From NCBI RefSeq assembly GCF_003075435.1, contig NZ_QCZJ01000014.1, positions 62,001-126,000 on the forward strand: a stretch of DNA of 64,000 bases, in the 5' to 3' direction. Under the pieces are notes generated by a model. The model was given only the letters and a program-made list of their open reading frames with translations. It did no database searches and had not been told where the DNA came from. Within the stretch, counting starts at the first letter, position 1. Each line of letters starts with the position of its first letter. The translations under genes and the position numbers were made by a program. Below are positions 10,260 to 38,044 of the stretch, in pieces. Origin of the DNA: Terrimonas sp. GTDB lineage: Bacteria; Bacteroidota; Bacteroidia; Chitinophagales; Chitinophagaceae.

Positions 10260-10378
10260 CGTTAAGTTTATCATGTCGCATATGGTCGTTAAAAGTGAAA
10301 TGTAAGACTTGTCTGCCGGCAGCTGCAGGCGTGAGATACTCACGTTATCGTCTGACGTTTCACAATTAACTTAACACC
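10260..10378. repeat. Imperfect inverted repeat between convergent genes, with GC-palindromic core
   Basis: The space between convergent stop codons holds nested inverted repeats. GTTAAGTT near 10261 pairs with AACTTAAC near 10367. GTGAAATGTAAGAC (about 10296-10309) pairs with GTCTGACGTTTCAC (about 10350-10363) with two mismatches. Inside are the palindrome CTGCCGGCAG and the small hairpin CGTGAG-ATA-CTCACG. The arms show a roughly 7-base periodicity. Likely a bidirectional transcript-end structure; there is no clear U-tract. Confidence 0.65.
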
Positions 10379-10431
10379 GGTAGCATAAAAAATCATCAAA
10401 AAACAATAGCATTAAAGTTGCCCGTTCCGCA

Positions 10432-11196
10432 TTACCGGGGAACCTGGAAAGTAAGCGGTTGCTTACGATAAGCCTTTACATTATGTCCATCCATATATGC
10501 AGGATTCCATTTAGGAGACTTTTTGATAATTCTAATTGCCTCTTCATCAAGAGAATACTCAACGGATTGCACCACTTCTACATTTGTTACGTTTCCTTTT
10601 GAATCAACTATAAATTCAACTACCACTGTTCCGGATTTACTGAGTTTATTTGCCCGCTCGGGGAATGTAATATTTTTCTGAATAAATTTTACCCAGGCTT
10701 TTTCTCCCCCGTCAAATGAAGCTTCTATTTCATCTTTAACCACGCGGTTATTCCATTCCCGTTCTTTCTCCTCGTTTGCCAGCCTGATTGCCGTAGTATC
10801 CATGCGTTCAAGCAACTTCCCTTTATCGTATTTTTCTTTACGAAATAAGGTAGAAGAATCCGTCATATAATACCACCAGTTATTTTTCTTTCCTTCGTAT
10901 GTAGTTCCGGATGAATCTATTTTTCCATCCCCTCCAAAAAAGATGAACGATCCATGAGGTATTGTTCCATCTTTATCTTTATATGTTTCAATAGTCATCA
11001 ATGGCCCGTCAAAATGATAGTATTTCCATTGATACGCGGTATCGCTTAACTTACGCAAACAGCCCAGGTATTTTGCCTGCTCAATTTTACAGGCTTTCCA
11101 GTTTTCATCAAAAACATAAAGGCTTACGTTGTTATCTTTTTGTGCGAACAAACAGACAGTTAAAAACAGGGCAGTTAAAGTAAACAGTGTTTTCAT
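10432..11196 (-). CDS. Secreted protein with C-terminal TonB domain
   Basis: 254 residues. A signal peptide (MKTLFTLTALFLTVCLFAQ) is followed by a MORN/YwqK-like antitoxin-type segment (about 60-125, WKYYHFDGPLMTIETYKDKDG and WWYYMTDSST), then a TonB C-terminal domain (about 160-254: ITFPERANKLSKSGTVVVEF, DSKGNVTNVEVVQS, AIRIIKKSPKWNPA). Proteins like this are often named energy transducer TonB, but here there is no N-terminal transmembrane anchor and no Pro-rich spacer, so true ExbB/ExbD coupling is doubtful. It lies 115 bp downstream of two DoxX-like genes on the same strand. Confidence 0.85.
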   Translation of the reverse strand: MKTLFTLTALFLTVCLFAQKDNNVSLYVFDENWKACKIEQAKYLGCLRKLSDTAYQWKYYHFDGPLMTIETYKDKDGTIPHGSFIFFGGDGKIDSSGTTYEGKKNNWWYYMTDSSTLFRKEKYDKGKLLERMDTTAIRLANEEKEREWNNRVVKDEIEASFDGGEKAWVKFIQKNITFPERANKLSKSGTVVVEFIVDSKGNVTNVEVVQSVEYSLDEEAIRIIKKSPKWNPAYMDGHNVKAYRKQPLTFQVPR

Positions 11197-11311
11197 AATA
11201 ATTTTAATTGAAGCGAAATAAAGGAATCAGATATGGAAATTTGAGAAAAGTGTTGAACATGTTATTTGTACAATATCAAAATGCCTCACTCTTTTATCTC
11301 TACCGAAGTTC

Positions 11312-13009
11312 TTAATATTCACCCGGCTGTAAACTGCTTTCCTTTAAAGTATATTTACGATCTATGCGATCAAGTAAAATATAAAGGGAATCATTATTTT
11401 CATCTGTACCAGATAAAATAATACGCTGACCATCAAGAGTGTCATATTTTAGTACCATTCTTTTTCTGACTTCATCATTCGCAGGCTCTGCATATTCCTT
11501 TATTCTTCTTGTAGTCACTGCTTTTGGATTTATTTTATATACTTCATTACCAATATTAGCCAGTGCTTCTTTGGGTATCCAGTTATACTGGTCATACGCT
11601 TCACTTTCTGTATCATCCTCTCCGCCATAAATTATTTTATTTTGCTTTTTTACATTCCACGTGGGTCCAACTGCACCTCCAACTCCGGCAGCACGGTTTC
11701 TTGCTATTGGCAAAGGAGTATATTTATCCTGTAAATACAGGGTTTTATTAATTTCATCTGCAAGATAATGAAATGCTCTTTGCCCCCCGGCTATTGCTGT
11801 AATTTCAAAAGTACGATCAATATCTCTTTGTGAATCGCCTCCGCCATTAGAAAGGTCGAGAGGCAATGGTTTATTAACTTTGAACGTAAGTGTTGGCCAT
11901 TTCTCAAATGTAACATCCTGCCACCGCACACTATCCAGCGGCGAATAAGGAATTATTTTATCATTAAGCCTGAACTCCGTTACTGTATAATTACCCCTGA
12001 GCTCTTTTACTCCGGCTGCAGATGGCAATTTATAAGGGTCATATCTCCAATTAATATACTGGAGATAAAAAAACAAAGGGAGAAAAATAAGAATAGTAAC
12101 AGTTTTTATACCAATACGCGCCCATCGCTGCCATACTTTGGAAAATGCCGGATAATAATTAACCGGCACCGTAAACTCTTCTTTTATGAACAGTTTATAA
12201 ATTTTAGGAACATCTGCTATCAGCAGAAAAGCTGCAAGCAATACAAAGTATGAACTATATACGTGCACACCGCCACTATAAGCTACATTTACAATTACGA
12301 TATCTCCGAGTGCGGCAAACAACAAAACAGAGCCCAGTGTTGTAGTTCGCCGGAATAACAATAATGTACCTGCACCCACTTCTACAACGCCTGCAAATAT
12401 TTGATACCATGGTGCAATGCCGACTGATAACCAGTAAATTTTCTGAGCCGTTATATCACCAAAATCAGCATTTAGCATGCCGAGCGATGGAAAAGGCATC
12501 TGCACCGGAAATACTTTTGTAAATCCAAACCCTATTATTCCTATACCAGCCCGGTAACGTACCAATGTCCTCAGCCAATAATAAAGAGTATTGTATTCCT
12601 CACGGTCTTTCCTTAGCAGGCGTACAACAACAGTCCATAAGAATCCTGCATTGATTGCAGCAATAGCTGTAATGAGCCAGTTTGCATAACCACCCAATGA
12701 TTTACCCAAAAAAGAATCTCCAAAAAAATTAATACCTGACCCAAACCTCGCTATATCATATAAGTCCCGATAATTAAGGCTGCTCCAATCTATATTGAGC
12801 ACCAGTTTAAACCATTCAGGGTTATTGGGAATACAGATAGCAACAAGAAAAATGAGCCCGATGCGAAACAAAATTTTTTCATACTGCTTCCATGGACGTA
12901 AAGCTGTTGTTTTTATTTGCTCACTTCCTGTCTCTAATGCTCTTTCGTATTCATCAGCATCAATCCTGTTAGATATTTTCATTTTGTCTATCTTATTTCC
13001 AGATGACAT
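11312..13009 (-). CDS. DoxX-like multi-pass membrane protein with C-terminal extracytoplasmic domain (copy 1)
   Basis: 565 residues. About seven or eight hydrophobic helices lie between residues 45 and 320, including the DoxX-like block LRTLVRYRAGIGIIGFGFTKVFPVQMPFPS and a following helix rich in Gly (IFAGVVEVGAGTLLLF). The last 240 residues are soluble and lipocalin-like in pattern (LRGNYTVTEFRLNDKIIPYS, LYILLDRIDRKYTL). DoxX-like proteins are linked to quinone or thiol redox chemistry in other bacteria, but no redox residues can be assigned here. It is a clear paralogue of the gene just upstream, which ends 28 bp before it. Function unknown. Confidence 0.8.
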   Translation of the reverse strand: MSSGNKIDKMKISNRIDADEYERALETGSEQIKTTALRPWKQYEKILFRIGLIFLVAICIPNNPEWFKLVLNIDWSSLNYRDLYDIARFGSGINFFGDSFLGKSLGGYANWLITAIAAINAGFLWTVVVRLLRKDREEYNTLYYWLRTLVRYRAGIGIIGFGFTKVFPVQMPFPSLGMLNADFGDITAQKIYWLSVGIAPWYQIFAGVVEVGAGTLLLFRRTTTLGSVLLFAALGDIVIVNVAYSGGVHVYSSYFVLLAAFLLIADVPKIYKLFIKEEFTVPVNYYPAFSKVWQRWARIGIKTVTILIFLPLFFYLQYINWRYDPYKLPSAAGVKELRGNYTVTEFRLNDKIIPYSPLDSVRWQDVTFEKWPTLTFKVNKPLPLDLSNGGGDSQRDIDRTFEITAIAGGQRAFHYLADEINKTLYLQDKYTPLPIARNRAAGVGGAVGPTWNVKKQNKIIYGGEDDTESEAYDQYNWIPKEALANIGNEVYKINPKAVTTRRIKEYAEPANDEVRKRMVLKYDTLDGQRIILSGTDENNDSLYILLDRIDRKYTLKESSLQPGEY

Positions 13010-13037
13010 GCTATTTGTTTTGAATTGAATTATTGGG

Positions 13038-14387
13038 TTACAGTTTCAGCTTCCTGCCACGTTTCTGCTTTTGAATAACTTTCAATAAATATTTTTTATC
13101 TACCCTTCTTAATGTGGCAAAAACAGAATCTTTATTCTGATCAATTCCTGCCAAAATAAATGTTGAATCATCGGGGTTTTCATACCTGAAAACAAGTGTT
13201 TCGTCTTTATAATTGGGATTGCGGTTTTGAAGCGTTAAAATATGGTTAACTGAATCAGCTTCATAACTGTAATAATGTCTCCCCGCTGAACCCTGTAGTT
13301 CATATATCCTGTTATTATTTTCTTTATAAATTCTATTAATATTGGTTGAATCAATTATTACCTCCCTGTTGGAAGCGATACTGATTGTATTCCAGTTCTC
13401 AAAAACAACATCCCTCCATCGTTTTGGATGTGTTTCAGAATAGGCAATGGTATCTTTGTTTAAAATAAATTCCTCCACATTATAGAAACCGCTGGACCCC
13501 GGCAAGCCTTTGGTAACAGGAATCTGGTAATTATCATAATAGTATCCATTGCGCGTTTTAAAGCCATATATAATAACAAAAAACAAAATAAAACCAGCTT
13601 TCAATGTCCACCTCCCATATTTCTGCCAACGCACATTAAATACTGGTTTGAAATAATTGGGGGCTGTAGGTTTTTGAAATATCAGGAGCTGTACTATTCG
13701 TTCCAGATCAAATAAGAGAATAAAAAAAGACATACTAAGCAAGAAAAGACAATACACATATTCTCCACCTTCGTAAGCAAGATTAGACATGAAAACATTT
13801 CCCGCAAAAATGATAATAAGAAACGCAGCAATAGAAGCTGTTTTACGATACAGTAATCCAAGCGCCAACATTATTTCTGTAAATCCGAGAAATGATTGAT
13901 ATGCTGGCACAATACCGAGCGTTAATGAAAATAATTTCCACAGATTAAAGTCGCCATAACTTGTATTTAGATTACTTATAGAAGGATAAGGAGCCAGCAT
14001 TGGAAACAACTTAATAAATCCATATGCCAGTAAAGCAACAGCTAACCTGAATCGTAATAATACACGTAACCAGTAATATAAAATTTTAAAATCGCGATCT
14101 TTATTTTTATCTGTCAGCCACCATATTGTTGCAATAACAGTTGCTATCAATAATACAATTCCCCAATCGGCAAAACTTTCACCGCCAGCCACAAACTGAG
14201 GCATGTAATGAGCAAGATTAAAAATATCTCCATAATACAGGTGCAGCCAGTTAACCGAGAAGATATATCTGTAAAATTTCCAGTCTACTGGTATTATCTG
14301 AAGTATGAAATAAACAAAAACAATTCGAAACACAGCTTTTTGAAATCTGCTCCATATAAGTCTCTGGTTCTTGGGGTTTAGGGACAT
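13038..14387 (-). CDS. DoxX-like multi-pass membrane protein with C-terminal domain (copy 2)
   Basis: 449 residues from the ATG at 14387 (MSLNPKNQRLIW). The frame also opens at a TTG at 14462, adding 25 polar residues, but the ATG is preferred. It shares order and local sequence with the downstream gene: WLRVLLRFRLAVALLAYGFIKLFPMLAPYPSISNLN matches WLRTLVRYRAGIGIIGFGFTKVFPV...PS, then NTSYGDF/NADFGD, EGGEYVYCLF/SGGVHVYSSY, and a soluble C-terminal domain ending DQNKDSVFATLRRVDKKYLL, matching DENNDSLYILLDRIDRKYTL. This copy has a shorter soluble domain. The tandem arrangement points to gene duplication. Confidence 0.8.
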   Translation of the reverse strand: MSLNPKNQRLIWSRFQKAVFRIVFVYFILQIIPVDWKFYRYIFSVNWLHLYYGDIFNLAHYMPQFVAGGESFADWGIVLLIATVIATIWWLTDKNKDRDFKILYYWLRVLLRFRLAVALLAYGFIKLFPMLAPYPSISNLNTSYGDFNLWKLFSLTLGIVPAYQSFLGFTEIMLALGLLYRKTASIAAFLIIIFAGNVFMSNLAYEGGEYVYCLFLLSMSFFILLFDLERIVQLLIFQKPTAPNYFKPVFNVRWQKYGRWTLKAGFILFFVIIYGFKTRNGYYYDNYQIPVTKGLPGSSGFYNVEEFILNKDTIAYSETHPKRWRDVVFENWNTISIASNREVIIDSTNINRIYKENNNRIYELQGSAGRHYYSYEADSVNHILTLQNRNPNYKDETLVFRYENPDDSTFILAGIDQNKDSVFATLRRVDKKYLLKVIQKQKRGRKLKL

Positions 14388-14687
14388 AACGTATTGATTA
14401 AACTGATACTGTTCAGGGTTACTAAAAGGTTTAAAATTTTTATCTTTCTGTTGCCACAACAAAATGGGATTACCATTGGTCTGTACCTAAGGTTTAAAGA
14501 TAATATTTTGTCTGGAAAAGTAATACCAAACGCGTTGCCGGGTAAAAATCCGTCATTGTTCCTTGTATCGCACGCTTCAAAAAGTATTAACTATCAATAT
14601 TATAAATCAACTATTTCACTGCTTTATCAACATTACATTTTCTATCTTTACCAATCCAAACCAGACACATCATCAAATTCTTAAATC

Positions 14688-15413
14688 ATGAAACACTTGC
14701 CATTATTAAGACATTTTATTGTTGTTGCTGCGCTCATAACATTTTTCGGTTTTGATGCTCCGCTGAAAAGTATTTCTCCATTGAATGGTGCGTGGAGCAT
14801 AACGGATAATAATAACACTACCTCCCTGTTGATAAGTGATGGTTATTGCATGATAACCACCTATGATAAAGATGGCAAAAAATTCATCAATACCTGGGGA
14901 GGGAGTTTTACCGTTGCCGGCAACCAGGTAAAGCTTAATGTTGAATTTAACAGCGATGATAAAACACAGGTAGGAAAAAGCCTGGCGTATACTTATTCTG
15001 TCCGGAATAATACCTTAATAACTGATGGAAACGGCGAACGGGCTGAATGGAACAGAGTGGATGATGGGAAAAGCCCACTTGCCGGCAACTGGCGTATTAC
15101 ACAGCGCAAACAAAACGACAAAATGGCTGATATGCCCTTAAGATCCAGAAGAACATTAAAACTACTTACAGGCACCCGTTTTCAATGGGCCGCCATAAAT
15201 ATAGAAACAGGAGAATTTTCAGGCACAGGTGGAGGAACCTATACTTTTACCAACGGCAAATACGCTGAACATATTGAATTTTTCTCCCGTGATAATTCAA
15301 GGGTGGGAGCATCATTAAGCTTTGATGGAAAAATTGAAGACGGGAATTGGATCCATTCAGGATTGAGTTCAACAGGACAACCCATTTATGAAATATGGTC
15401 GAGATTTAAATAG
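14688..15413 (+). CDS. Secreted protein with two tandem lipocalin-like domains
   Basis: 241 residues. A signal-anchor-like N-terminus (RHFIVVAALITFFGFDAP) is followed by two copies of a domain of about 100 residues. Copy one has LNGAWSITD...GGSFTVAGNQVKLNVEFNS...TQVGKSLAYTYS; copy two has LAGNWRITQ...GGTYTFTNGKYAEHIEFFS...SRVGASLSFDGK. Both start with the GxW signature of lipocalin-like folds. Small proteins of one such domain are common in Bacteroidota; the internal duplication is plain here. Probable periplasmic ligand binding, not established. The stop codon is directly followed by a heptamer repeat array. Confidence 0.78.
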   Translation: MKHLPLLRHFIVVAALITFFGFDAPLKSISPLNGAWSITDNNNTTSLLISDGYCMITTYDKDGKKFINTWGGSFTVAGNQVKLNVEFNSDDKTQVGKSLAYTYSVRNNTLITDGNGERAEWNRVDDGKSPLAGNWRITQRKQNDKMADMPLRSRRTLKLLTGTRFQWAAINIETGEFSGTGGGTYTFTNGKYAEHIEFFSRDNSRVGASLSFDGKIEDGNWIHSGLSSTGQPIYEIWSRFK

Positions 15414-15551
15414 TTTGTGGTTTGTGGTTTATAGTTTATAGTTTATAGTTTATGGTTTATGGTTTGTGGTTTATGGTTTGTGCCTTGTTTACAATTTGAA
15501 TTGTGGCGTAACCCAACCTCAAACCATAAACCACAAATTACAAACCTTATA
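15414..15551. repeat. Heptamer array with inverted complementary arm filling a convergent intergenic region
   Basis: Starting at the base after the upstream stop codon there are ten 7-base units in exact phase (15414-15483): TTTGTGG twice, TTTATAG three times, TTTATGG twice, TTTGTGG, TTTATGG, TTTGTGC. After about 40 bp, complementary units follow in phase: CCATAAA, CCACAAA, TTACAAA, CCTTATA (15524-15551), the last overlapping the stop of the opposite gene. The transcript from either side would form a long AU-rich hairpin, so a bidirectional terminator or mRNA 3' end is likely. Confidence 0.85.
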
Positions 15552-16719
15552 CCCCACTTCTCAATATCCCCAGTTCCAAACCTCTTAATTCTGCCAATCC
15601 GCGTAAGCGGCCGATGGCTGAATAACCCGGGTTATTTACCTTACCCATATCATCCAGCATCTGGTGACCATGATCTGGCCGGAACGGAATATGCAATGAA
15701 GATAACTGTTGTACATTCAGCAGTGCTTTCATTACCGCATACATATCCGTATCGCCATCCAGGTGGTCTGCTTCATAAAAATTGCCTTCTTTATCCCTTT
15801 TGGTATTACGCAAATGGGCAAAATGTATTCTCGTATTTACCTCGTTGATCATATCAGGTAAATCATTAGCCGGGTTTGCGCCTAATGAACCTGTACAAAA
15901 ACAAATGCCATTTGACGGAGCGTTCGAAAATGAAATGATATCCATCAGGTCCTGCCTGTTGCAAACGATTCTTGGCAATCCCAGTATATCAAAAGGAGGA
16001 TCATCTGGGTGTATTGCCAGCTTTAAACCAAGCTCCGCGGCAACAGGGGCTACTTCCTGCAGAAAATATGCAAGATTTGATTTAAGTGCCTTCCTGTCAA
16101 TATCTTTATACTTCTCCAGCTCTTTTTTCATGCCCGCGGTTGTTCTTTTTTCTTCGCCGGGAATTCCGAATAAAACAGTATCTATCAGCGCGTCTTTCTG
16201 AGCAGGGGTAAGATCATTATTCTTTTGAGTTGCTTTAGCCACTACCGCTGCAGGATAATCATTTTCTGCATCTTTTCTGCCCAGCAGATAAATATCAAAC
16301 AAGGCAAGATCACTCCAGTTAAAATACAATGCCTGCGATTCATCTGCCATCGGGTAATAGATATCCGTACGCGTCCAGTCGTTAACAGGCATAAAATTAT
16401 ATGTGATGATCTTTACGCCACAGGCTGCAAGATTAGCAAGCGATTGTTTATATTTTTCAATATATAGTTTATAGTTGCCGGTTCTTTGCTTAATATCTTC
16501 ATGTACCGTCAGGCTTTCAACCACACTCCATTCAAAACCGCCTTTTTTTAATTCATCAATCCGTTTATTGATTTCTTCTTTCGTCCATAATTCACCATGA
16601 GGAATATGGTGCAATGCCGTTACAATACCCTGTGCGCCTGCCTGTTTAATGTCCCTGAGCGATACGGGGTCGTTTGGTCCGAACCAGCGCCAGGTTTGCA
16701 ATAGATTTTTTGAGTACAT
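15547..16719 (-). CDS. uxuA: Mannonate dehydratase
   Basis: 390 residues from ATG 16719 (MYSKNLLQTWRWFGPNDPV). A TTG at 16740 would add seven residues but the family starts near the ATG. The WRWFGPNDPVSL opening, TALHHIPHGELWT, FNWSDLALF, the metal-ligand region LAIHPDDPP, CFCTGSLGA, HFAHLRNTKR and FRPDHGHQML are the UxuA family blocks, with the Cys and His ligands present. It dehydrates D-mannonate to 2-keto-3-deoxy-D-gluconate in hexuronate (glucuronate) catabolism, in the cytoplasm. No other uronate genes lie beside it, so this is an isolated pathway gene here. Confidence 0.95.
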   Translation of the reverse strand: MYSKNLLQTWRWFGPNDPVSLRDIKQAGAQGIVTALHHIPHGELWTKEEINKRIDELKKGGFEWSVVESLTVHEDIKQRTGNYKLYIEKYKQSLANLAACGVKIITYNFMPVNDWTRTDIYYPMADESQALYFNWSDLALFDIYLLGRKDAENDYPAAVVAKATQKNNDLTPAQKDALIDTVLFGIPGEEKRTTAGMKKELEKYKDIDRKALKSNLAYFLQEVAPVAAELGLKLAIHPDDPPFDILGLPRIVCNRQDLMDIISFSNAPSNGICFCTGSLGANPANDLPDMINEVNTRIHFAHLRNTKRDKEGNFYEADHLDGDTDMYAVMKALLNVQQLSSLHIPFRPDHGHQMLDDMGKVNNPGYSAIGRLRGLAELRGLELGILRSGV

Positions 16720-16939
16720 GCTGAAAAATTGAGTTTGCAAAGTAGGGTAAAAAAGTCAAAAGCGAAATATTGAATATTGCTTTTTGACTACCGTTGTTTT
16801 GGGCGGGGCAGATGTGTATATTACAATAGAAATGAAGAATATATACCTGCTACCCGTAAATCTCACAAATAATAACCAAAATTGTATAATGCTTCCTTCC
16901 CCATTCTTTGCCAATTTTGCATTATTAAAAATAATAACA

Positions 16940-17167
16940 ATGAATAACGATACTACAAACCTTCAGTTCAAAACAAATATTAATTGCAGCGGTTGCATAG
17001 CTTCGGTAAAGCCATTTTTGGACAAAGCTGAAGGCATCACCCAATGGGATGTAAACACTACAGATAAGAATAAAACCCTTACTGTTAAATCAGAAGGCAT
17101 AACAGTGCAGCAGGTAATAGACACAGTACAAAAAGCAGGCTTCAAAATTGAATCTATTAATCAATAA
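16940..17167 (+). CDS. HMA-domain copper chaperone-like protein
   Basis: 75 residues from the ATG at 16940; a TTTTGC -7-like element lies about 20 bp upstream, and longer frames starting at 16784 are not credible. It is a single heavy-metal-associated domain with the metal-binding C-x-x-C motif at Cys16-Cys19 (INCSGCIASV), and the typical ITQWDVNTTDKNKTLTV strand and QKAGFKIESI end. It should bind Cu(I) or another soft metal in the cytoplasm and pass it on. It leads a three-gene copper locus with a DUF3347 protein 10 bp downstream and a multicopper oxidase. Confidence 0.88.
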   Translation: MNNDTTNLQFKTNINCSGCIASVKPFLDKAEGITQWDVNTTDKNKTLTVKSEGITVQQVIDTVQKAGFKIESINQ

Positions 17168-17177
17168 AATTACTTTT

Positions 17178-17633
17178 ATGAAAAGGCTTCTTTTAGCAGC
17201 ATGTGTGCTGCTTTTTGGACAAACCGTATTTGCACAGGATGCAGACGATCTCCTGACCAGTTACTTTTCCATAAAAAATGCATTGATAACGGCTGATAGT
17301 AAAGCTTCTTCCAAAGCCATAGAGGATTTTATTGAAGCAATAAAAGCCGGTAAAGATTTTACACAAAAAAATGATTTACTGAAAACTGCGGATGCAATGG
17401 GCAGATCAACTGATATCGAAAAGCAAAGAGTAGCATTCGAAAAGGTTTCAATTACTATGTGGGAGATAGTAAAACAATCAGTTCCGTTAAATCAGGATGT
17501 ATATTATCAATATTGCCCTATGAAAAAAGCTTATTGGCTGAGTAATGAATCTGCTATCAAAAACCCATACTACGGATCAAAAATGCTTACATGTGGCAGT
17601 GTGAAAGATAAAAAATTAAATGGAAAGGAGTAA
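17178..17633 (+). CDS. DUF3347 copper-associated periplasmic protein
   Basis: 151 residues from ATG 17178, which gives a clean signal peptide (MKRLLLAACVLLFGQTVFAQ). DUF3347 features are clear: a helical N-terminal half (LLTSYFSIKNALITADSKAS) and the conserved Cys/Met/Tyr block QYCPMKKAYWLS...NPYYGSKMLTCGS near the C-terminus, whose Cys and Met are probable copper ligands. The family is found next to, or fused to, RND-type and P-type heavy-metal efflux components. It starts 10 bp after the HMA gene and precedes the multicopper oxidase by 109 bp. Confidence 0.85.
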   Translation: MKRLLLAACVLLFGQTVFAQDADDLLTSYFSIKNALITADSKASSKAIEDFIEAIKAGKDFTQKNDLLKTADAMGRSTDIEKQRVAFEKVSITMWEIVKQSVPLNQDVYYQYCPMKKAYWLSNESAIKNPYYGSKMLTCGSVKDKKLNGKE

Positions 17634-17742
17634 GGTTATGGGAACCTGATCGATCCACTATGTTCAAGCCTCAAAATAAAAAGCAGGCAAATTATTGGTA
17701 AGGTATTGAAGCATATACAAAATGATTTAAAATATTCATAGT

Positions 17743-19863: not shown

Positions 19864-19905
19864 AGTGCGAAAAAATAGTAAACAGGGCACAATAGTGCTA
19901 TACTA

Positions 19906-19975
19906 TATAAGGTACAGGTTATAGGCTGTATATCCTATTCCTTAAACCTTATCTTATCTCCCCTACCCTTTTTCT
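19906..19975. repeat. Heptamer-phased inverted repeat between convergent genes
   Basis: Between the oxidase stop (19863) and the opposing desulfurase stop (19974) lies a run in 7-base phase: TATAAGG, TACAGGT, TATAGGC, then CTTAAAC, CTTATCT, TATCTCC, CCTACCC. The purine-rich left arm is roughly complementary to the pyrimidine-rich right arm, so the transcript can fold back. The unit differs from that at 15414 but the architecture is the same. The array again ends on the stop codon of the opposing gene. Confidence 0.65.
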
Positions 19976-21104: not shown

Positions 21105-21138
21105 AGCAAAATATTATATACCAAAAAACTACGAAAGG

Positions 21139-25585: not shown

Positions 25586-25615
25586 TTAAATAAGCTTATT
25601 CACTTTCAGATGTAG

Positions 25616-26247: not shown

Positions 26248-26267
26248 TTCGGTCAAATATATAATTC

Positions 26268-28234: not shown

Positions 28235-28349
28235 GAGTTATATAGCGGTATAAAAATTTACCAACGGGCAAAGGTAACAAGTCTTTGAGTAATTATTACG
28301 CTTACAGGCACACCTGAGAATGTCACTTTCTTCAAACGATACCATCAGA

Positions 28350-28383
28350 AAACAGCCCCGCTTCAAATTAGGCGGGGCTGTTT
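28350..28383 (-). terminator. Rho-independent terminator after the FKBP gene
   Basis: Stem AAACAGCCCCGC (28350-28361) pairs with GCGGGGCTGTTT (28372-28383) around a 10-base loop. On the minus strand it is followed by TTTTC. It ends the nrnA-FKBP unit before ribD begins. Confidence 0.88.
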
Positions 28384-28409
28384 ATTTATTATACAGGTAC
28401 CGGAAGCTC

Positions 28410-29405: not shown

Positions 29406-29417
29406 AATTAAAATTGA

Positions 29418-30443: not shown

Positions 30444-30546
30444 TTATAATAGCCATTCAGTCAAATATTTTTTCCTGCATAAACAGATACAGGCTTATAA
30501 GGATGCTAATTACACAAATCAATATGCTAATTATTAACCGAAACAG

Positions 30547-30554
30547 TACCTTTG
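30547..30554 (+). promoter_or_regulatory. Bacteroidota -7 box upstream of ndk
   Basis: TACCTTTG matches the TAnnTTTG -7 consensus and ends 18 bp before the ndk ATG at 30573. No good TTTG -33 box is visible at 19-22 bp spacing. It supports the 30573 start over the TTG at 30552, which lies inside the box. Confidence 0.5.
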
Positions 30555-30572
30555 CTGCCCAAAAGAAAAAAT

Positions 30573-30989
30573 ATGAGCAATAGAACATTTACCATGATTA
30601 AGCCTGACGCATTTGCCAATGGTCATTCAGGAGCTATTATAGACAGAATTATAAAGGCAGGCTTTAAAATTGTGGCTTTAAAACTCACATCGCTATCTGC
30701 TGAAAAAGCCGGTGAATTTTACGCGGTGCATAAGCAACGTCCTTTTTACGGAGAACTGGTAGAATTTATGAGCAGCGGACCCATTATCGCAGCTATTTTA
30801 GAAAAAAACAATGCAGTAGAAGATTTCAGGAAGCTGATTGGTGCAACCGACCCCGCTAAGGCAGATGAAGGTACCATACGCAGGGTTTTTGCTGAAAACC
30901 TTGGCAGAAACGCTATTCATGGCAGCGATAGTGATGATAATGCCGCCATAGAAGGCAATTTTTTCTTTTCAGGACTGGAAAGGATTTAA
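30573..30989 (+). CDS. ndk: Nucleoside diphosphate kinase
   Basis: 138 residues from ATG 30573 ([14 protein letters not shown]). All NDK landmarks are present: the KPDA N-terminus, the ATP-binding block [15 protein letters not shown], the [16 protein letters not shown] segment and the phospho-accepting His116 in [10 protein letters not shown]. It balances NTP pools by moving phosphate from ATP to NDPs. The length is normal for the family. It is monocistronic, with its own -7 box and a terminator right after it, and divergent from nrnA. Confidence 0.97.
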
Positions 30990-31023
30990 GTGTTTCTATT
31001 TAAAAAATAAATAATCTGGCGAA

Positions 31024-31049
31024 AAAAGACCGGTTTAAGACCGGTTTTT
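31024..31049 (+). terminator. Terminator after ndk
   Basis: ACCGGT (31029-31034) and ACCGGT (31040-31045) form a hairpin flanked by A-run and T-run (AAAAG...GTTTTT), a compact rho-independent terminator 35 bp after the ndk stop. Confidence 0.8.
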
Positions 31050-31436
31050 AAAATTTGGCATAATCTTAGTTATAATATAAACATCTTTCTCAAGGGTTTA
31101 GGGTTGAAACTAAAGGGGGCTCATTTCCATGGGCCTCAATTTTTTTTATATAGCGGGTAGTTCAATGTATTGCAAAAAAAGATTCCTACAATTTGTGCAT
31201 ATCATTTGGTATTGACCAAAAACTTTTACAACAATTAGTCCTCCGCAGAAAAAGCATAATTTCTTCAAAAAGACAACACACTAACAAAACTTACGCATTG
31301 AGCATGCTGTACAAATAAATGAACTTAAAAAGATTGTTGGATAAGACCTGGTTGAACTTCAGCGTTATTAAACATGAGATCAGAAGAGGGACCTAAAAGA
31401 GTTGTATTGCATCTGAAATTGTATGCAAAATCCCAA
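31050..31436. other. Gene-free region with possible decayed coding remnant
   Basis: No intact gene is seen. A hairpin-like stretch near 31116-31140 (GGGCTCATTTCCATGGGCCTC then a T-run) resembles the tRNA terminator 320 bp further on (31437-31470), as if the terminator had been duplicated. Around 31300-31370 a plus-strand frame reads HAVQINELKKIVG, stop, DLVELQRY, stop, which is the pattern of a decayed coiled coil such as the end of an IS3-type transposase OrfA. This is weak evidence; the stretch may simply be non-coding. Confidence 0.35.
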
Positions 31437-31470
31437 ATAAAAAAAGGGTCTCATTTTCATGAAACCCTTT
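31437..31470 (-). terminator. Terminator after tRNA-Val
   Basis: On the minus strand AAAGGGT...TCAT pairs with ATGA...ACCCTTT and is followed by a run of seven T (31440-31446 on the plus strand are A). It lies 11 bp downstream of the tRNA 3' end. Confidence 0.8.
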
Positions 31471-31481
31471 ACTGTATTGAG

Positions 31482-31556
31482 TGGGAGCACACGGGCTCGA
31501 ACCGCGGACCCTCTGCTTGTAAGGCAGATGCTCTGAACCAACTGAGCTATGCTCCC
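31482..31556 (-). tRNA. tRNA-Val, anticodon TAC
   Basis: On the minus strand the cloverleaf is complete. Acceptor GGGAGCA pairs with TGCTCCC plus discriminator A. The D arm is GCTC...GAGC. The anticodon stem TCTGC/GCAGA carries loop CTTACAA, so the anticodon is TAC (reads GTA/GTG valine codons). The T arm is CGCGG-TTCGAGC-CCGTG. The CCA end is not encoded (the next bases are CTC). A terminator hairpin follows. Confidence 0.96.
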
Positions 31557-31689
31557 TTTTTGTAGAACTACCCCGTTTTAATTGGGAGTGCAAAGATAAG
31601 TGTTGAATCATTTCTGCAAAATTTTTTTGAAATAAAATCAAACAAAATATATTTTCATCCTCCTCCCTCAATAAGATAATATCTCAAGC

Positions 31690-31757
31690 CAATGCTGATG
31701 ACTAATGGCTGACTGCTGATAGCTAACTGCCCAAAGCCCACAACCCACACCCCACCT
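31690..31757. repeat. Heptamer-phased array downstream of the SUMF1-domain gene
   Basis: Units in 7-base phase run up to the stop codon of the minus-strand gene: GCTGATG, ACTAATG, GCTGACT, GCTGATA, GCTAACT, then GCCCAAA, GCCCACA, ACCCACA, CCCCACC. Two different unit families are joined head to tail. No complementary arm is apparent, unlike the arrays at 15414 and 19906. Confidence 0.75.
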
Positions 31758-32583
31758 AATTCGGATACAGTACCAGCCTGAAGCCTCCAATATCATCCAT
31801 ATAATCCTGCTTAACACTATTGCGGGTGGTTACTCTGCAACTGGCTGCCTGGGTAAACCACGAGCCTCCACGCCTGACCCTGCCAGAACCTGACTCCGGC
31901 CCAACAGGATTATTATGCTCGTTTTGCTCGTAGTAAAATTTGCTATACCAATCCTGGCACCATTCCCAAACATTGCCCGTCATATCATACAAACCAATTG
32001 AATTGGGTTTCTTTTCTCCAACAGGATGCGGATGCCTGCCGCTGTTTCCCGAATACCACCCTGCTTCATCTATATCATCACTACCACTATAGCGAAACTG
32101 CTTCCAGTCCTTTCCTCCCTTTGCTGCATACTCCCATTCTGCTTCTGTAGGTAAACTGTATTTTTTATCCGTGAGCGCATTTAATATTTCTATAAACTTT
32201 TGTGCATCGTTCCAGGTTACTTTATCAACAGGGCATTGATCACAACCGGAAAATTCACTTGGGTTTGTTCCCATAATAGCAACCCATTGTCTTTGTGTAA
32301 CAGGATATTTACTTATAGCATACCCGTCTACGGTTACTTCATAAGCAGGGCGTTCATCTGCTTCACCTGCATCATTGCCCATTACAAAATTGCCGCCTGT
32401 TACCCACACCATATTGTTCTGAATACTATCTAATAACTCCTTACTCACAACAGGTAAAACAATTTTTTCCTTCTTGTTTTTTTTCTTCTTTTGCTGAGCT
32501 GATACATCAATACAAATCAACATAAACAGCATAGCCAAACCAGCTTTCAAAACATTTAATGTCATATGCCGCATTGTTTTCAT
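31756..32583 (-). CDS. Secreted SUMF1/FGE-fold protein, probably non-catalytic
   Basis: 275 residues. A signal peptide (AMLFMLICIDVSAQ) is followed by a Lys-rich linker (QQKKKKNKKEK). The formylglycine-generating-enzyme sulfatase (SUMF1) fold then has MVWVTGGNFVMGND, ISKYPVTQRQWVAIMG, YSLPTEAEWEYAAKGG, NSIGLYDMTGNVWEWCQDWY and RRGGSWFTQAASCRVTTRNS. In true FGE the last block carries two catalytic Cys; here the first position is Thr, so sulfatase activation is unlikely. In Bacteroidota this fold also appears in gliding/T9SS proteins such as GldK and GldJ, but no lipobox is seen here. It ends at a heptamer array. Confidence 0.87.
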   Translation of the reverse strand: MKTMRHMTLNVLKAGLAMLFMLICIDVSAQQKKKKNKKEKIVLPVVSKELLDSIQNNMVWVTGGNFVMGNDAGEADERPAYEVTVDGYAISKYPVTQRQWVAIMGTNPSEFSGCDQCPVDKVTWNDAQKFIEILNALTDKKYSLPTEAEWEYAAKGGKDWKQFRYSGSDDIDEAGWYSGNSGRHPHPVGEKKPNSIGLYDMTGNVWEWCQDWYSKFYYEQNEHNNPVGPESGSGRVRRGGSWFTQAASCRVTTRNSVKQDYMDDIGGFRLVLYPN

Positions 32584-32642
32584 AATGGTTTGATTGTTTA
32601 CAGAAAAATTATTTGAATAATATTGCCGTTTTCAAATATAGC

Positions 32643-32673
32643 AAAAAAAATCCCGCTTCTTTTGAAGCGGGAT
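32643..32673 (-). terminator. Terminator after groEL
   Basis: ATCCCGCTTC (32650-32659) pairs perfectly with GAAGCGGGAT (32664-32673) around a TTTT loop; the minus-strand transcript then runs into eight T. It ends the groES-groEL operon 30 bp after the stop. Confidence 0.92.
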
Positions 32674-32703
32674 ATATGATATATGACCTTTCGATCAACT
32701 GGA

Positions 32704-34386
<1,683 letters not shown>

Positions 34387-34436
34387 TAGCCGGGCATTCC
34401 TGCCAACCGTCTCTTTTAAAATTGCTATAAATATTT

Positions 34437-34718
34437 TTAAACGATAGCAAGAATATCAGACTCTCTCATAATAAGATAGTCTCCGCCATCAATCGTTATT
34501 TCAGTACCGGCATATTTGCCATATAATACTACATCACCTGATTTTACGCTTACAGGCTCGTCTTTTTTACCAGGACCAGCGGCAACAACAGTTCCACGCT
34601 GTGGCTTTTCTTTTGCAGTATCAGGAATAATGATGCCCCCTGCAGTCTTTTCTTCCGCAGGAGCTGGTTTCACGATCACCCTGTCATGAAGGGGAGTTAC
34701 ACTAAATTTTTTAGACAT
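34437..34718 (-). CDS. groES: 10 kDa co-chaperonin GroES
   Basis: 93 residues, standard length. Family blocks: [19 protein letters not shown], the mobile loop [27 protein letters not shown] and [30 protein letters not shown]. It caps the GroEL ring. First gene of the operon; a candidate promoter lies about 55 bp upstream of its start. No CIRCE-like inverted repeat (the HrcA operator) was seen in the upstream 300 bp, in line with Bacteroidota that control chaperones differently. Confidence 0.98.
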
Positions 34719-34771
34719 AAAAATGATTTTTTGTTGATTAAAGACTTGATTTTAAAAATCTTTAAGGCGGA

Positions 34772-34805
34772 CAAAGGTATACGAATAATATGCCAATGCG
34801 TCAAT
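34772..34805 (-). promoter_or_regulatory. Candidate promoter of groES-groEL
   Basis: On the minus strand TACCTTTG (34779-34772) fits the TAnnTTTG -7 consensus of the Bacteroidota primary sigma factor, with ATTG (34805-34802), close to the TTTG -33 box, 22 bp upstream. The distance to the groES ATG (34718) leaves a leader of about 45-50 nt. Confidence 0.5.
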
Positions 34806-34895
34806 GCCGGAAAAAATTTCAGTTTTTATTGTAATACCGCAATTTGTGGAAAAAGATGGCAGAAACGGACCTGGGGATATATGCCAATTTTACCG

Positions 34896-34986
34896 GAAAA
34901 GGTAGAAGGTAAAGGGTTTAAGGTATATGATTGAAACGATCTTCGCCTTATATCTCATACCTTCCATCTTTTCTCTTATACCAAAA
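34896..34986. repeat. Heptamer-phased inverted arrays in the groES-nusB divergent region
   Basis: The left arm is in 7-base phase: AAAAGGT, AGAAGGT, AAAGGGT, TTAAGGT, ATATGAT (34898-34932). The right arm is CCTTATA, TCTCATA, CCTTCCA, TCTTTTC, TCTTATA (about 34946-34980), largely complementary. Unlike most such arrays in this window, it lies between divergent genes, upstream of nusB. Confidence 0.75.
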
Positions 34987-35024
34987 TTTCCCTACCTTCG
35001 CCGCCGCTTAATAGTTCTTTAAAG

Positions 35025-35951
35025 ATGATCAGCAGAAGAAACATACGTGTAAAAGTTATGCAAACCCTCTACACTATTGATACCAGTGAAGAGCAAGCCC
35101 AGGGAAATAAATTTAATAAGTTATTAGACAAGCATTTAGAGCAATCCCGCCAGATTTTCGTTTATCTCATTCATCATATCATAAGCATAGCCCGCTATGC
35201 AGAAACGGACTCCCGTTTACGATCTTCAAAACATTTGCCCAGCAAAGAAGATCTGAATGTAAATATTAAAATAGCCGGCAATGAAATAGTATGGAAAATA
35301 CTGGAAGACTCCTCGTACCAGCGTGCTGTTGCCGAAATAAAGCCCCAGCACTGGGATAATGATGAGTTGATAAGAAAGACTTATTTACAGCTTGTAGAAG
35401 CGCCTGTATATAAGGAATATATTGCGCTGCAGGAAAGAAATAAGAAATCGGAGAAAAATATACTGGAATATATTTTTACAGACCTGATGCTGGCAAACGA
35501 TGACTTTATGTCTCATATGGATGATACCTTTCTCCACTGGGACGACGATGCAGAAATGATGAACCAGCTTGTACTGAACTTTCTGCAAAAACCGGCAAAT
35601 GCTGATTTCCAGGATATGCTGGGCGCGGAAAAAAGGAAATTTGCGAACGACCTGCTGCAAACTGTTTTAGAGAAAAAAGAATACTGCCTTGAGCTCATCA
35701 AGCCCAAATTAAAAAACTGGGATGCGGAAAGAATAGCTGTGCTGGATATGATCCTTATGGAAATGGGCGTTTGCGAGTTCCTGTATTTTGATACCATACC
35801 TACAAAAGTTACCATTAATGAATATATTGACCTGGCAAAGGAATACAGCACACAGCAGAGCGGGCATTTTGTAAATGGTATTTTGGATAATATTCATAAG
35901 GATCTGCTGGCACAGGATAAACTGCACAAAGTATCTCATAAAAAATCTTAA
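35025..35951 (+). CDS. nusB: Transcription antitermination factor NusB (long Bacteroidota form)
   Basis: 308 residues, about twice the length of the E. coli protein. The N-terminus keeps the NusB opening SRRNIRVKVMQTLYTID; the helical middle (about 40-190) is an insertion usual in Bacteroidota. The C-terminal NusB fold occupies about 195-300, with ERIAVLDMILMEMGVCEFLYFDTIPTKVTINEYIDLAKEYS and QSGHFVNGILDNI. It binds rRNA boxA with S10 in antitermination complexes. It has no close operon partner; DUF1573 follows after 159 bp. Confidence 0.94.
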   Translation: MISRRNIRVKVMQTLYTIDTSEEQAQGNKFNKLLDKHLEQSRQIFVYLIHHIISIARYAETDSRLRSSKHLPSKEDLNVNIKIAGNEIVWKILEDSSYQRAVAEIKPQHWDNDELIRKTYLQLVEAPVYKEYIALQERNKKSEKNILEYIFTDLMLANDDFMSHMDDTFLHWDDDAEMMNQLVLNFLQKPANADFQDMLGAEKRKFANDLLQTVLEKKEYCLELIKPKLKNWDAERIAVLDMILMEMGVCEFLYFDTIPTKVTINEYIDLAKEYSTQQSGHFVNGILDNIHKDLLAQDKLHKVSHKKS

Positions 35952-35959
35952 CGCGTTTA

Positions 35960-36016
35960 TAAAAACTATTAAGCAATTAAGAAAAGTTAAGCGGTTTAAT
36001 TCCCTTAATTTCTTAA
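35960..36016. repeat. Short-unit inverted array after nusB
   Basis: TTAAG-centred units (ATTAAGC, AATTAAG, AGTTAAG) spaced 8-9 bp are followed by TTAAT-centred complements (CCCTTAATTT, CTTAATGG). A transcript can fold into an AU-rich hairpin just past the nusB stop. The period is less regular than in the heptamer arrays. Confidence 0.5.
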
Positions 36017-36082
36017 TGGCTCAAAATATAAAATAACGCAGGCACTGCCAATTCCCTTCGCGCTTTCCTTGTAATAAAAATG

Positions 36083-36090
36083 TACATTTG
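36083..36090 (+). promoter_or_regulatory. -7 box upstream of the DUF1573 gene
   Basis: TACATTTG matches TAnnTTTG and ends 20 bp before the ATG at 36111, a typical leader length; a TTCG possible -33 lies 22 bp upstream. Confidence 0.45.
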
Positions 36091-36110
36091 CAGTCCAAAT
36101 TCAATAAAAG

Positions 36111-36557
36111 ATGAGCAGACTTATTTTGGCCGCCATTATTATTACAACTTTTTTTGCAGCCTGCCAGCAGGGAGAAAGCAAAACACCTGTGGCCACCGAT
36201 GCTGCAAAAGCAGCAAACGCTCCTGTTGATCCGGCAAGCCTAACAACCATACAATGGCTGGATTCTACGCTTGACAAAGGCACCATAACCGAAGGAGAAA
36301 AAATTGAAGTAGCATACCGTTTTAAAAATACCGGTAATAAACCCCTGGTAATAAAAGATGTTCGCCCTTCCTGCGGATGCACCGTAGCTGAAAAACCTGA
36401 AGAACCTATTGCACCAGGCGGAGAAGGTATTATTAAAGGTGTATTTAACAGCGCAAATAAATTGGGACCCAATCACAAGACTATTCATGTGGTTACCAAT
36501 ACACAACCCGATACCTATGCGCTTGTTTTTAATGTGGTAGTCAATAAAAAGAATTAA
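36111..36557 (+). CDS. DUF1573 lipoprotein
   Basis: 148 residues. Lipoprotein signal ILAAIIITTFFAACQQGE with the lipidated Cys at about 19, then a single DUF1573 Ig-like (ASH-type) domain: EKIEVAYRFKNTGNKPLVIKD, the signature VRPSCGCTVAEKPEEPIAPG, and HKTIHVVTNTQPD. These envelope proteins are abundant in Bacteroidota; function unknown. Its position just before yajC (33 bp gap) suggests joint transcription with the secretion accessory gene. Confidence 0.93.
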   Translation: MSRLILAAIIITTFFAACQQGESKTPVATDAAKAANAPVDPASLTTIQWLDSTLDKGTITEGEKIEVAYRFKNTGNKPLVIKDVRPSCGCTVAEKPEEPIAPGGEGIIKGVFNSANKLGPNHKTIHVVTNTQPDTYALVFNVVVNKKN

Positions 36558-36590
36558 TCAAATTTGTATTCAAATATTTAAAACAACAAC

Positions 36591-36923
36591 ATGACAAGTT
36601 ATTTAACATTATTACAGAGTGCACAGGGAAATGCCCAAATGATGCAGATGATTATGCTGGTAGGTATCATCGCGGTATTTTACTTTTTCATGATCCGCCC
36701 TCAAACCAAGAAAGCGAAAGAAGCTAAAAACTTTCAGACCAACCTTCAGAAAGGCGATAAAGTAGTTACCATTGCCGGTATACATGGCAAAATAGATAAG
36801 GTAAATGAAGACAATACCCTGCAGCTTGAAGTTAGCCCCGGCAGCTATCTCAAAATTGAAAAAAGTGCTATCAGCATGGAATGGAGCAAACAATTAAATG
36901 GCGCTGCTGCTGATAAAAAATAA
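36591..36923 (+). CDS. yajC: Preprotein translocase subunit YajC
   Basis: 110 residues, standard length. One transmembrane helix (MIMLVGIIAVFYFFMI) is followed by the family signature RPQTKKAKEAKNFQTNLQKGDKVVTIAGIHGKI and a short cytoplasmic beta domain. It associates with SecDF and the Sec translocon in the inner membrane. It is followed by a terminator and then coaE. Confidence 0.96.
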   Translation: MTSYLTLLQSAQGNAQMMQMIMLVGIIAVFYFFMIRPQTKKAKEAKNFQTNLQKGDKVVTIAGIHGKIDKVNEDNTLQLEVSPGSYLKIEKSAISMEWSKQLNGAAADKK

Positions 36924-36940
36924 AATTTAACGAGTTAATA

Positions 36941-36977
36941 AAAAATCCGGGATCCAGACTATGGGTTTCGGATTTTT
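36941..36977 (+). terminator. Terminator after yajC
   Basis: AAAAATCCG (36941-36949) pairs perfectly with CGGATTTTT (36969-36977), followed by a T-rich run. It lies 17 bp after the yajC stop and directly upstream of coaE. Confidence 0.78.
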
Positions 36978-37009
36978 ATTTTCTATAAGTTTATACAAAA
37001 TTTCAGTCC

Positions 37010-37642
37010 TTGCTTAAAATAGGTTTAACAGGCGGAATCGGCTCAGGCAAAAGCCTTGTTGCCCGCATATTTGAAGTGCTGGGTATCGCAGTGTATTATG
37101 CTGACACAGCGGCTAAAGCAATTATGAACAATGATGAAATACTGAAAGCCGGGATCATCAGGCATTTTGGCACCGAATCTTATACCAATGGATTGCTCAA
37201 TAGAAAGTATATCGCGTCAAAAGTATTTGGTAATGAAGATCAGCTAGCCTTATTAAACAGTCTTGTTCACCCGGCAACAATACGGGATGCTGAAAAGTGG
37301 ATGCTGCAACAAAGCGCTCCTTATACCATTAAAGAAGCCGCCCTTATTTTTGAAAGCGGCTCACAGGAACATCTTGATTATGTAATTGGCGTATATGCAC
37401 CCAAAAACCTGCGCATACTTCGAACCATGCAGCGCGATAATGTAAGCCGAGATGAAGTTTTAAAACGCATGAAAAACCAGATAAATGAAGAGATAAAAAT
37501 GAGGCTCTGCGATTTTGTTATCTATAATGATGAACAGAAAGCCATACTTCCACAGGTGCTTGCCCTGCACGAACAATTATTAACGATTGTAAAAAGAACA
37601 CTACATGAGCCACAAAGTCATTCCCATACTGCGCATATTTGA
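37010..37642 (+). CDS. coaE: Dephospho-CoA kinase
   Basis: 210 residues. The P-loop GLTGGIGSGKS lies at residues 5-15, then VYYADTAAKAIM, LVHPATIRDAEKW, and the RMKNQINEEIKMRLCDFVIYND lid and end. It phosphorylates dephospho-CoA in the last step of CoA synthesis. The initiation codon appears to be TTG at 37010: no ATG or GTG precedes the P-loop in frame. The end overlaps the next gene by 38 bp. Confidence 0.95.
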   Translation: MLKIGLTGGIGSGKSLVARIFEVLGIAVYYADTAAKAIMNNDEILKAGIIRHFGTESYTNGLLNRKYIASKVFGNEDQLALLNSLVHPATIRDAEKWMLQQSAPYTIKEAALIFESGSQEHLDYVIGVYAPKNLRILRTMQRDNVSRDEVLKRMKNQINEEIKMRLCDFVIYNDEQKAILPQVLALHEQLLTIVKRTLHEPQSHSHTAHI

Positions 37643-37979
37643 TGAAGCAAAAGCCCGTGAATTTTATATTGACTGGCTGGATTTTTCGGTTGATTGGGAA
37701 CATCGCTTTGACAGTAATACGCCCTTATATATGCAGGTATCTAAAGAAGATATTGTACTGCATTTATCCGAACACCACGACGACGGTTGCCCCGGCGCAA
37801 AAGTATTTATTGAAACAAGCGAAGGGCTTGCCCGCTATCAAAAATTACTGATAGAAAAAAATTACAAATACGGCCACCCCGGTCTGGAAGAAGCGCCATG
37901 GAATGCCATAACATTAACACTGCACGATCCTTTTGGCAACAAATTGTTGTTTAGTGAAAAGAAAATGGAACACGGATAA
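37605..37979 (+). CDS. VOC/glyoxalase superfamily protein
   Basis: 124 residues, one vicinal-oxygen-chelate domain: ILRIFDEAKAREFYIDWLDFSVDWEH, YMQVSKEDIVLHLSEHH, and a C-terminal strand LTLHDPFGNKLLFSE. It resembles bleomycin-resistance and glyoxalase-like proteins; His in LHLSEHH and Glu in LLFSE are candidate metal ligands. Substrate unknown. It overlaps the coaE 3' end by 38 bp in another frame, so translation is probably coupled. Confidence 0.85.
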   Translation: MSHKVIPILRIFDEAKAREFYIDWLDFSVDWEHRFDSNTPLYMQVSKEDIVLHLSEHHDDGCPGAKVFIETSEGLARYQKLLIEKNYKYGHPGLEEAPWNAITLTLHDPFGNKLLFSEKKMEHG

Positions 37980-38044
37980 AACGGATATGACGGATATTCA
38001 CGAAATGTATCCGCGTTATTCAGTACAATCCGCGTATTCCGTGT
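37973..38044. repeat. Nonamer-phased inverted array after the VOC gene
   Basis: Units in 9-base phase: ACGGATAAA, ACGGATATG, ACGGATATT, CACGAAATG, then the complementary TATCCGCGT, TATTCAGTA, CAATCCGCG, TATTCCGTG. The first unit overlaps the VOC stop codon. The transcript forms an imperfect hairpin. Same architecture as the 7-base arrays but with a 9-base unit. The remaining 230 bp before the next gene show nothing further except a -7 box at 38267. Confidence 0.75.

Follow-up and report, generated by a model that had tools for sequence, protein, structure and literature searches.

In 2007, Mrazek et al. reportedly described long simple sequence repeats with an excess of heptanucleotide units and proposed slippage as their source; the heptanucleotide repeats of Calothrix go by the name STRR, and dispersed intergenic palindromes are familiar as repetitive extragenic palindromic (REP) sequences and bacterial interspersed mosaic elements (BIMEs), with their REP-associated tyrosine transposase (RAYT), and as miniature inverted-repeat transposable elements (MITEs). 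Here, we describe tandem arrays of mainly seven-base units in the gaps between genes of a Terrimonas genome (6.18 Mb in 82 contigs), starting from a 64-kb window (positions 62001–126000 of its contig C14). According to Rehm et al. (2015; PMC4692102), the heptamers GGGAATC and GGGGA(C/T)T of Xanthomonas and Nostoc are intergenic and linked to G-quadruplexes, and a role was not found. Two sites often stand 'in convergent orientation' (70 cases in the genome abbreviated Xcc and 75 in Xac), the repeats lie nearer the 5' neighbouring open reading frame (ORF; on average 28 vs 160 nt) and are fewer between divergent ORFs, and in two close species their position is mostly kept as length and sequence vary. 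MacGregor (2015; PMC4679880) reports TAACTGA direct repeats from Beggiatoaceae, Cyanobacteria and five Bacteroidetes, mostly intergenic and read as a translational control site; in the BOGUAY genome they stand mostly in one orientation ahead of start codons with inverted pairs rare, and in a Microcystis sample the orientations were mixed (6 forward, 8 reverse and 8 between stops). Both papers pass on Mrazek's idea that slippage by 7 nt is favoured by a polymerase contact of that length, PMC4692102 also cites the heptanucleotide repeats of Calothrix, PMC4060949 surveys tandem and inverted repeats in prokaryotes, and PMC8794818 provides a general precedent for hairpins created by template switching.

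The Terrimonas arrays are of this known but unexplained kind, in an unusually varied form, and what sets them apart is the many words, the gaps that mix words and the turnover of words. Recurring words in the array list of this genome were A (GTTTRTR), B (AGCTRTC), C (ATTTGAR), D (GGTTNCA) and E (AAGGTNN), besides which there were rarer heptads and words of 8 and 9 bases. Like the heptamers of Rehm et al., the units are intergenic, seven bases long and alike in placement, polarity and inverted pairing; unlike those, which PMC4692102 presents as one G-rich word type capable of forming quadruplexes, they come as many words per genome, mostly without three-G motifs, with more than one word in some gaps and with words changing at sites that are kept. 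The complement of word B is TAGCTGA-like, one base off the TAACTGA of PMC4679880, and its complement orientation likewise lies on the start-codon side; unlike it, TAACTGA is described there as a single word with rare inverted pairs, and word B, the nearest match here (TAACTGA itself was not searched for), stands at stops as well as at starts. The arrays share a preference for 7-nt units with the Mrazek and Calothrix repeats which, unlike them, are cited in these sources with no inverted arms or strand rule noted. The first-pass annotation of the window knew of no named class for its arrays; published classes exist in the Xanthomonas/Nostoc heptamers and the TAACTGA repeats (PMC4692102, PMC4679880), and, in searches of the open PMC library, we found no description of oriented multi-word heptad arrays in Chitinophagaceae.

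A seven-base period is over-represented in intergenic DNA, as in the heptameric intergenic repeats of the Rehm and Mrazek type. Using home-made gene calls, we sampled 470 gaps of 40–1000 nt (115,622 nt in total) from the window plus 800 kb of the same genome (hereafter G000), of which 540 kb were contig C1 and 260 kb outside it had been chosen near word-A matches. Arrays with a lag score of at least 10 occurred at lag 7 in 43 of the 470 gaps vs 1.0 in shuffles (mean of five), at lag 14 in 35 vs 0.8, at lag 8 in 9 vs 1.0 and at lag 9 in 6 vs 0.6, bearing out the first-pass annotation, which had called for such an autocorrelation check. Lag-7 identity was 0.2905 vs 0.2732 in shuffles (z 10.9; z 14.2 at lag 14 and 8.1 at lag 21), contig C1 alone gave 0.289, and lags 2 and 3 were raised as well (z about 15). 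Coding DNA had a lag-7 identity of 0.2528, not above that of neighbouring lags indivisible by three. At 80 GroEL loci, nearly all from Bacteroidota, arrays scoring at least 12 fell at lags 7 (42), 8 (13), 9 (10), 10 (4) and 13 (2), with none at lags 5 and 11. When one locus of the window's own genus (L057) was excluded, 28 of the 700 gaps of the other 79 held an array at lag 7, 15 at lag 8, 26 at lag 14 and 12 at lag 16, with every other lag from 4 to 20 at 5 or fewer; one 50-kb stretch of E. coli had no lag-7 array.

The units form a small recurring vocabulary common to many loci and to other genera. The stretch 15380–15580 of the window had at least 56 matching pieces in its own genome, itself included (counted among the best 40 of 92 candidates), and among 77 arrays the unit profiles were alike in 19.7% of pairs vs 2.6% with permuted columns. 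Three successive copies of word A gave 56 matches in G000 (overlaps counted) and none when the pattern was read backwards. The corresponding threefold patterns were present, own genome included, in 16 of 296 Bacteroidota genomes for word A (backwards, 7), 17 of 296 for word B (backwards, 2) and 5 of 148 genomes for word C (backwards, 2); backwards words thus form arrays too, and many words can therefore arise. The view that the unit differs at each place holds within the window and fails for the genome, where the same words recur; several words do share one architecture, and the units are not unrelated sequences. Arrays in G000 ranged from two to about ten units. A short palindromic insert of the GCCGTGGCGG type was seen within word C arrays at G004:C8:20550-21054, at G005:C4:72976-73312 and in the gap upstream of groES in G001 (G004, G005 and G001 being genomes of the same genus). 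Three contigs (L228, G065:C8; L224, G174:C1; L233, G111:C16) ended about 30 bases or less from AGCTATC arrays, and such arrays may thus break assemblies.

The feature common to the arrays is a strand rule, by which words mostly point inward from the gene on their 5' side. G+T content was rejected as a universal measure of polarity because it failed in the 79 wider loci, and we therefore adopted word-specific orientation, defined by inspection of G000 (the strand that leads there) and then tested elsewhere on matches between two called ORFs; a simpler ORF caller served for the 79 loci and for the orientation counts per gap type. In the genus, whose genomes are not independent of one another, words A–D lay nearer the 5'-side gene in 101 of 122 cases and the opposite way in 21 (A 40/45, B 14/17, C 24/28, D 23/32), at a median distance of 33 nt from that gene vs 108 nt from the other (means 69 and 163 nt). 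Counted per gap, 63 followed the rule, 9 went against it and 8 were ties. Inward orientation in convergent gaps was nearly uniform (A 13/13, C 7/7, D 11/12), and tandem gaps obeyed the rule in 24 of 29 cases for A, 12 of 15 for B and 14 of 18 for C. In gaps with two arrays, the first arm was more G-skewed than the last in 46 of 51 and less so in 5 (5 vs 0 in divergent gaps); array-free gaps were weakly skewed in the same direction (net 60 and 104 of 632). Among 40 loci of other genera, picked solely for containing word A or B (five of them in G044, a member of the same family, and the others no closer than the order), word A kept the rule in 18 of 20 cases from 17 gaps (p = 4e-4) and word B in 12 of 16 from 14 gaps (p = 0.08); eight more matches of at least 20 bases fell inside called ORFs.

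Sister genomes were compared for position and word separately, as the first-pass annotation had suggested, and the comparison supports array positions being kept better than words. Among orthologous gap pairs (where a group held over four genomes, only its pairs involving G000 or G004 were kept), 143 had an array in neither member, 14 and 26 in one and 15 in both (odds ratio 5.9, p = 5e-5), and word similarity at the 15 shared sites was 0.70 vs 0.62 for random pairs (p = 0.03). Between groES and groEL, each of the 11 genus genomes fetched had a TCAAAT stretch ahead of the groEL start, and 2 of the 11 passed the array cut. The gap upstream of groES had recognisable flanks and differing contents in 11 genomes; in the ortholog set 4 of 9 passed the cut, and by eye six held arrays (E in G000; D and A in G004; D, B and C in G005; D and C in G001; D in G009; A and C in G010), with no clear array by eye in G002, G006, G007, G008 and G011. 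Three Chryseobacterium loci (L124, L126 and L135) carried a near-identical heptad array, TCTAAC/TCTGAC, directly ahead of groEL, as word C stands in the window's genus. At the 3' end of a class-V aminotransferase gene (the only part of this site in common, as the next gene differs in some genomes), G000 had E-like units, G004, G005, G001, G002 and G011 had other words, and no array was seen by eye in G003, G007, G008, G009 and G010. One orthologous gap was filled in G004 (134 nt, containing a word-E hairpin) and short in G000 (40 nt, no such hairpin).

Copying between loci has support in G004; it is weak in G005, and in G000 it is not clear. Composite blocks of several words recurred, in alignment, at several loci of G004 and G005. 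With a loose cut (at most 7 lag matches), 18-mers common to another gap were found in 10 of 21 array gaps vs 1 of 74 other 3'-end gaps in G004, 6 of 15 vs 1 of 61 in G005 and 13 of 67 vs 42 of 395 in G000. With a strict cut that left non-periodic 18-mers (at most 4 lag matches), the G004 figures were 6 of 21 vs 0 of 74.

Within the window, the first-pass annotation had listed nine places as short-unit arrays at gene ends, most of them with a forward and a complementary arm. Each place was compared with 500 dinucleotide shuffles of the local stretch for the lag-7 score, the best of lags 7–9 and the inverted repeat, and the features are as follows.

15414–15488, plus strand: word A array (GTTTATG/GTTTGTG/GTTTATA), forward arm; lag-7 score 48, p = 0.002.
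15515–15544, minus strand: complementary word A arm AAACCATAAACCACAAA, adjoining the uxuA stop codon; inverted repeat p = 0.002.
31729–31755, plus strand (place 31690): heptad array GCCCAAAGCCCACAACCCACACC; lag-7 period p = 0.002, no significant inverted arm (p = 0.59).
34351–34387, plus strand: word C array (ATTTGAA) in the groES–groEL gap; lag-7 period p = 0.002, best of lags 7–9 p = 0.004, arms within chance (p = 0.30).
34897–34983, no strand (place 34896): weak word E hairpin (AAGGTNN ... NNACCTT); lag 7 p = 0.02, best of lags 7–9 p = 0.06, inverted repeat p = 0.018; some sister species have other words in this gap.
37964–38057, plus strand (place 37973): dispersed palindrome of about 95 bp with 9-base units (ACGGATATG); best of lags 7–9 p = 0.002, arms within chance (p = 0.25); at least 24 further copies in G000 (counted among the best 25 of 213 candidates).
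35952–36110, no strand (place 35960): inverted repeat with TTAAG-type units at 8–9-base spacing; inverted repeat p = 0.020, lag 7 within chance (p = 0.18; best of lags 7–9 p = 0.25).
10261–10375, no strand (place 10260): wide inverted repeat, GTTAAGTT...AACTTAAC and GTGAAATG...ACGTTTCAC, p = 0.008; no heptad array, lag 7 within chance (p = 0.46).
63948–64000, no strand (place 63947): inverted repeat GAATGGTGAA...TTCACCATTC at the window end, p = 0.010; lag 7 within chance (p = 0.11).
19906–19960, no strand: word-E-like stretch in a convergent gap, 3' of the aminotransferase gene after which some sister species have other words; period (p = 0.17) and arms (p = 0.28) within chance.

A period of 7 or 9 bases was thus significant at four of the nine places (15414, 31690, 34351 and 37973) and borderline at 34896, and an inverted repeat at five (10260, 15414, 34896, 35960 and 63947). 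The two occurred together at 15414 and weakly at 34896, so the two-armed architecture had been overstated, and four places (10260, 19906, 35960 and 63947) are not periodic. The gene-end placement applies loosely, as the list takes in the divergent gap between groES and a NusB-domain gene (34897–34983) and the gap between groES and groEL, where the array on the operon strand reads TCAAAT directly ahead of the groEL start. The strongest case was 15414–15546, where GTTTATG/GTTTGTG and its complementary arm occupy the gap between two convergent genes: the forward arm starts directly 3' of one stop codon, ahead of the end of uxuA (15547–16740, PF03786). By eye, GCTGAT-like units directly precede the 31729–31755 array. 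The 37964–38057 sequence, six copies of which align over their full length, is an ordinary short interspersed element unlike the heptad arrays; elsewhere, the matches listed were two in G009 and a single one in each of G005 and G008. At 31026–31047, directly 3' of an ORF end, T's follow a perfect tandem pair with 11-base units, AAGACCGGTTT; this is possibly a terminator hairpin. An Rfam scan of the 64-kb window at gathering scores matched a tRNA alone and none of the arrays.

Our leading explanation, which we hold tentatively, is that errors of replication produced the arrays, which would then be neither a single element nor a single regulatory code. In a gene gap, where it would be tolerated, a seed would be amplified by slippage, preferably in steps of 7 nt (8 or 9 less often). 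The nascent strand, when richer in G and T, would then fold back and be copied, adding a complementary arm; fold-back copying would therefore leave the polarity 5'-word ... complement-3' on either strand. Stretches would further be copied between loci by template switching or gene conversion, a step supported in G004 and weak in G005, through which words would spread and mosaics form. Finally, sites would persist as words turn over, a step that the sister genomes support. Slippage alone may not suffice, given the composite junctions common to G004 loci (weak in G005 and not clear in G000). When 170 arrays were folded on themselves as DNA, the G-strand folded better in 70, the C-strand in 16, and the two were equal in 84.

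Several observations weigh against this explanation. Arms correspond as words and not in exact register: perfect hairpins exist by eye (e.g., C14:25602–25653), but in 25 two-array gaps the own arm ranked first against the arms of all other loci in just 2, many of these gaps pair different words, and recent fold-back copying predicts a closer correspondence. As own arms were no better than cross-locus arms, maintenance of the arms by exact compensatory change was also rejected. The folding advantage of the G-strand was small (mean −1.82 vs −1.55 kcal/mol), and the mutation event itself was not observed. Word D barely followed the strand rule in tandem gaps (8/14), word E did not follow it on few cases (2/4 in G000), lone arrays on the right side of divergent gaps went both ways (6 vs 5), and the 79 wider loci had no G+T polarity (left 3/12, right 13/22, two-array gaps 3/6). 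With the strict cut, 18-mer sharing was 2 of 15 vs 1 of 61 in G005 and 7 of 67 vs 28 of 395 in G000, and the excess at the looser cut is partly due to shared words.

We consider it somewhat unlikely that oriented heptad arrays in bacterial gene gaps at large are the work of a general replication process that depends little on sequence. One rule of inward word and far complement would then cover the quadruplex words of Xanthomonas and Nostoc, the TAACTGA of Beggiatoaceae and the G-poorer words of Bacteroidota; the polarity would be a fossil of which nascent strand folds back, not caused by G-quadruplexes or translation signals, and sites would persist as words were overwritten, in some genomes from other loci.

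Selection for 3'-end elements is a rather unlikely alternative, in which hairpins, or G-poor and C/A-rich Rho sites, would end transcription or protect RNA ends, with words drifting under a kept structure. The gene context agrees with it in G000, where arrays at a cut of 9 occupied 41 of 329 tandem, 8 of 73 convergent and 0 of 90 divergent gaps (contig C1 alone: 21/192, 4/45 and 0/53), and where other gene calls at a cut of 8 gave 53/374, 12/86 and 2/101. Divergent gaps of the sister genomes, however, carried arrays about as often as others (cut 8; G004: tandem 16/79, convergent 2/13, divergent 3/15; G005: 6/59, 5/13 and 4/20), so that depletion in divergent gaps is clear in G000 and not in G004 or G005; at the 79 wider loci the counts were 19 of 493 tandem, 6 of 95 convergent and 3 of 112 divergent gaps. 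RNA folding also speaks for kept structure, with a median z-score of −1.98 in array gaps vs −0.91 in length-matched gaps (82 each, p = 0.019) and z < −3 in 25 vs 15, as do the array positions conserved between species and one convergent gap in which a GC-rich hairpin followed by TTT in G000 and G007 stands where G001 has a word-D array. Against it, many gaps have a single arm or arms of different words, and canonical terminators, called with a detector that also fired in 18 of 200 shuffled sequences, were not significantly rarer in array gaps, whether convergent (9/23 vs 42/97, p = 0.82) or tandem (13/79 vs 115/467, p = 0.15). With no significant exclusion, arrays as a replacement for canonical terminators were rejected; some hairpins may nevertheless act as 3'-end or terminator-like structures.

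Mobilisation by an enzyme, as a dispersed family of REP/BIME type with RAYT or as a MITE with terminal inverted repeats whose diverged variants would be the words, is improbable. In its favour, the polarity 5'-word ... complement-3' is reminiscent of terminal inverted repeats, G004 has recurrent composite cassettes, one gap occurs in a filled and in a short version, and Y1_Tnp matches were present in all 12 genus genomes (72 in all). Around 20 of these 72 matches (four genomes), however, there was no enrichment of arrays (12 in 86.5 kb, or 0.139/kb, vs a background of 0.10–0.21), and on this ground an origin from one mobile element or from RAYT was rejected. REP and BIME sequences are recognised by one conserved palindrome of fixed length; the heptad arrays have many words, variable length and no common core or ends seen among the words, and the 37964–38057 element alone, the 9-base place, is of REP/BIME/MITE type. 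The earlier opinion that no single mobile element is involved is supported for the heptad arrays and not for place 37973.

Selection related to translation, by which the complement would be kept ahead of start codons to avoid spurious starts or to add stops with arrays otherwise neutral, is very improbable. The complement lacks ATG, GTG and TTG in all four example words, and the TAACTGA repeats of Beggiatoaceae also stand directly ahead of start codons, mostly in one orientation (PMC4679880). The strand rule nevertheless extends to convergent gaps, where there is no start codon, and words B and C obey it even though the word B example has no start codon either way and the complement of word C has no stop. 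Avoidance of start codons as the sole cause of polarity was rejected on both counts. G-quadruplex biology, as proposed for the GGGAATC heptamers whose placement and strand rule are the same (PMC4692102), can be dismissed for this genus as having almost no likelihood, since a three-G quadruplex motif (four tracts) was present in 1 of 194 arrays (a two-G motif in 26) and quadruplexes therefore cannot cause the strand rule here.

These results unite isolated accounts of odd heptamer repeats in a single rule that can be tested, and they argue against quadruplexes as the general cause of that rule. If the polarity does stem from fold-back copying of one strand, these gaps would record strand-specific errors of the polymerase. 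The genus offers a natural set for comparison, as in the gap upstream of groES with its differing words among 11 genomes.

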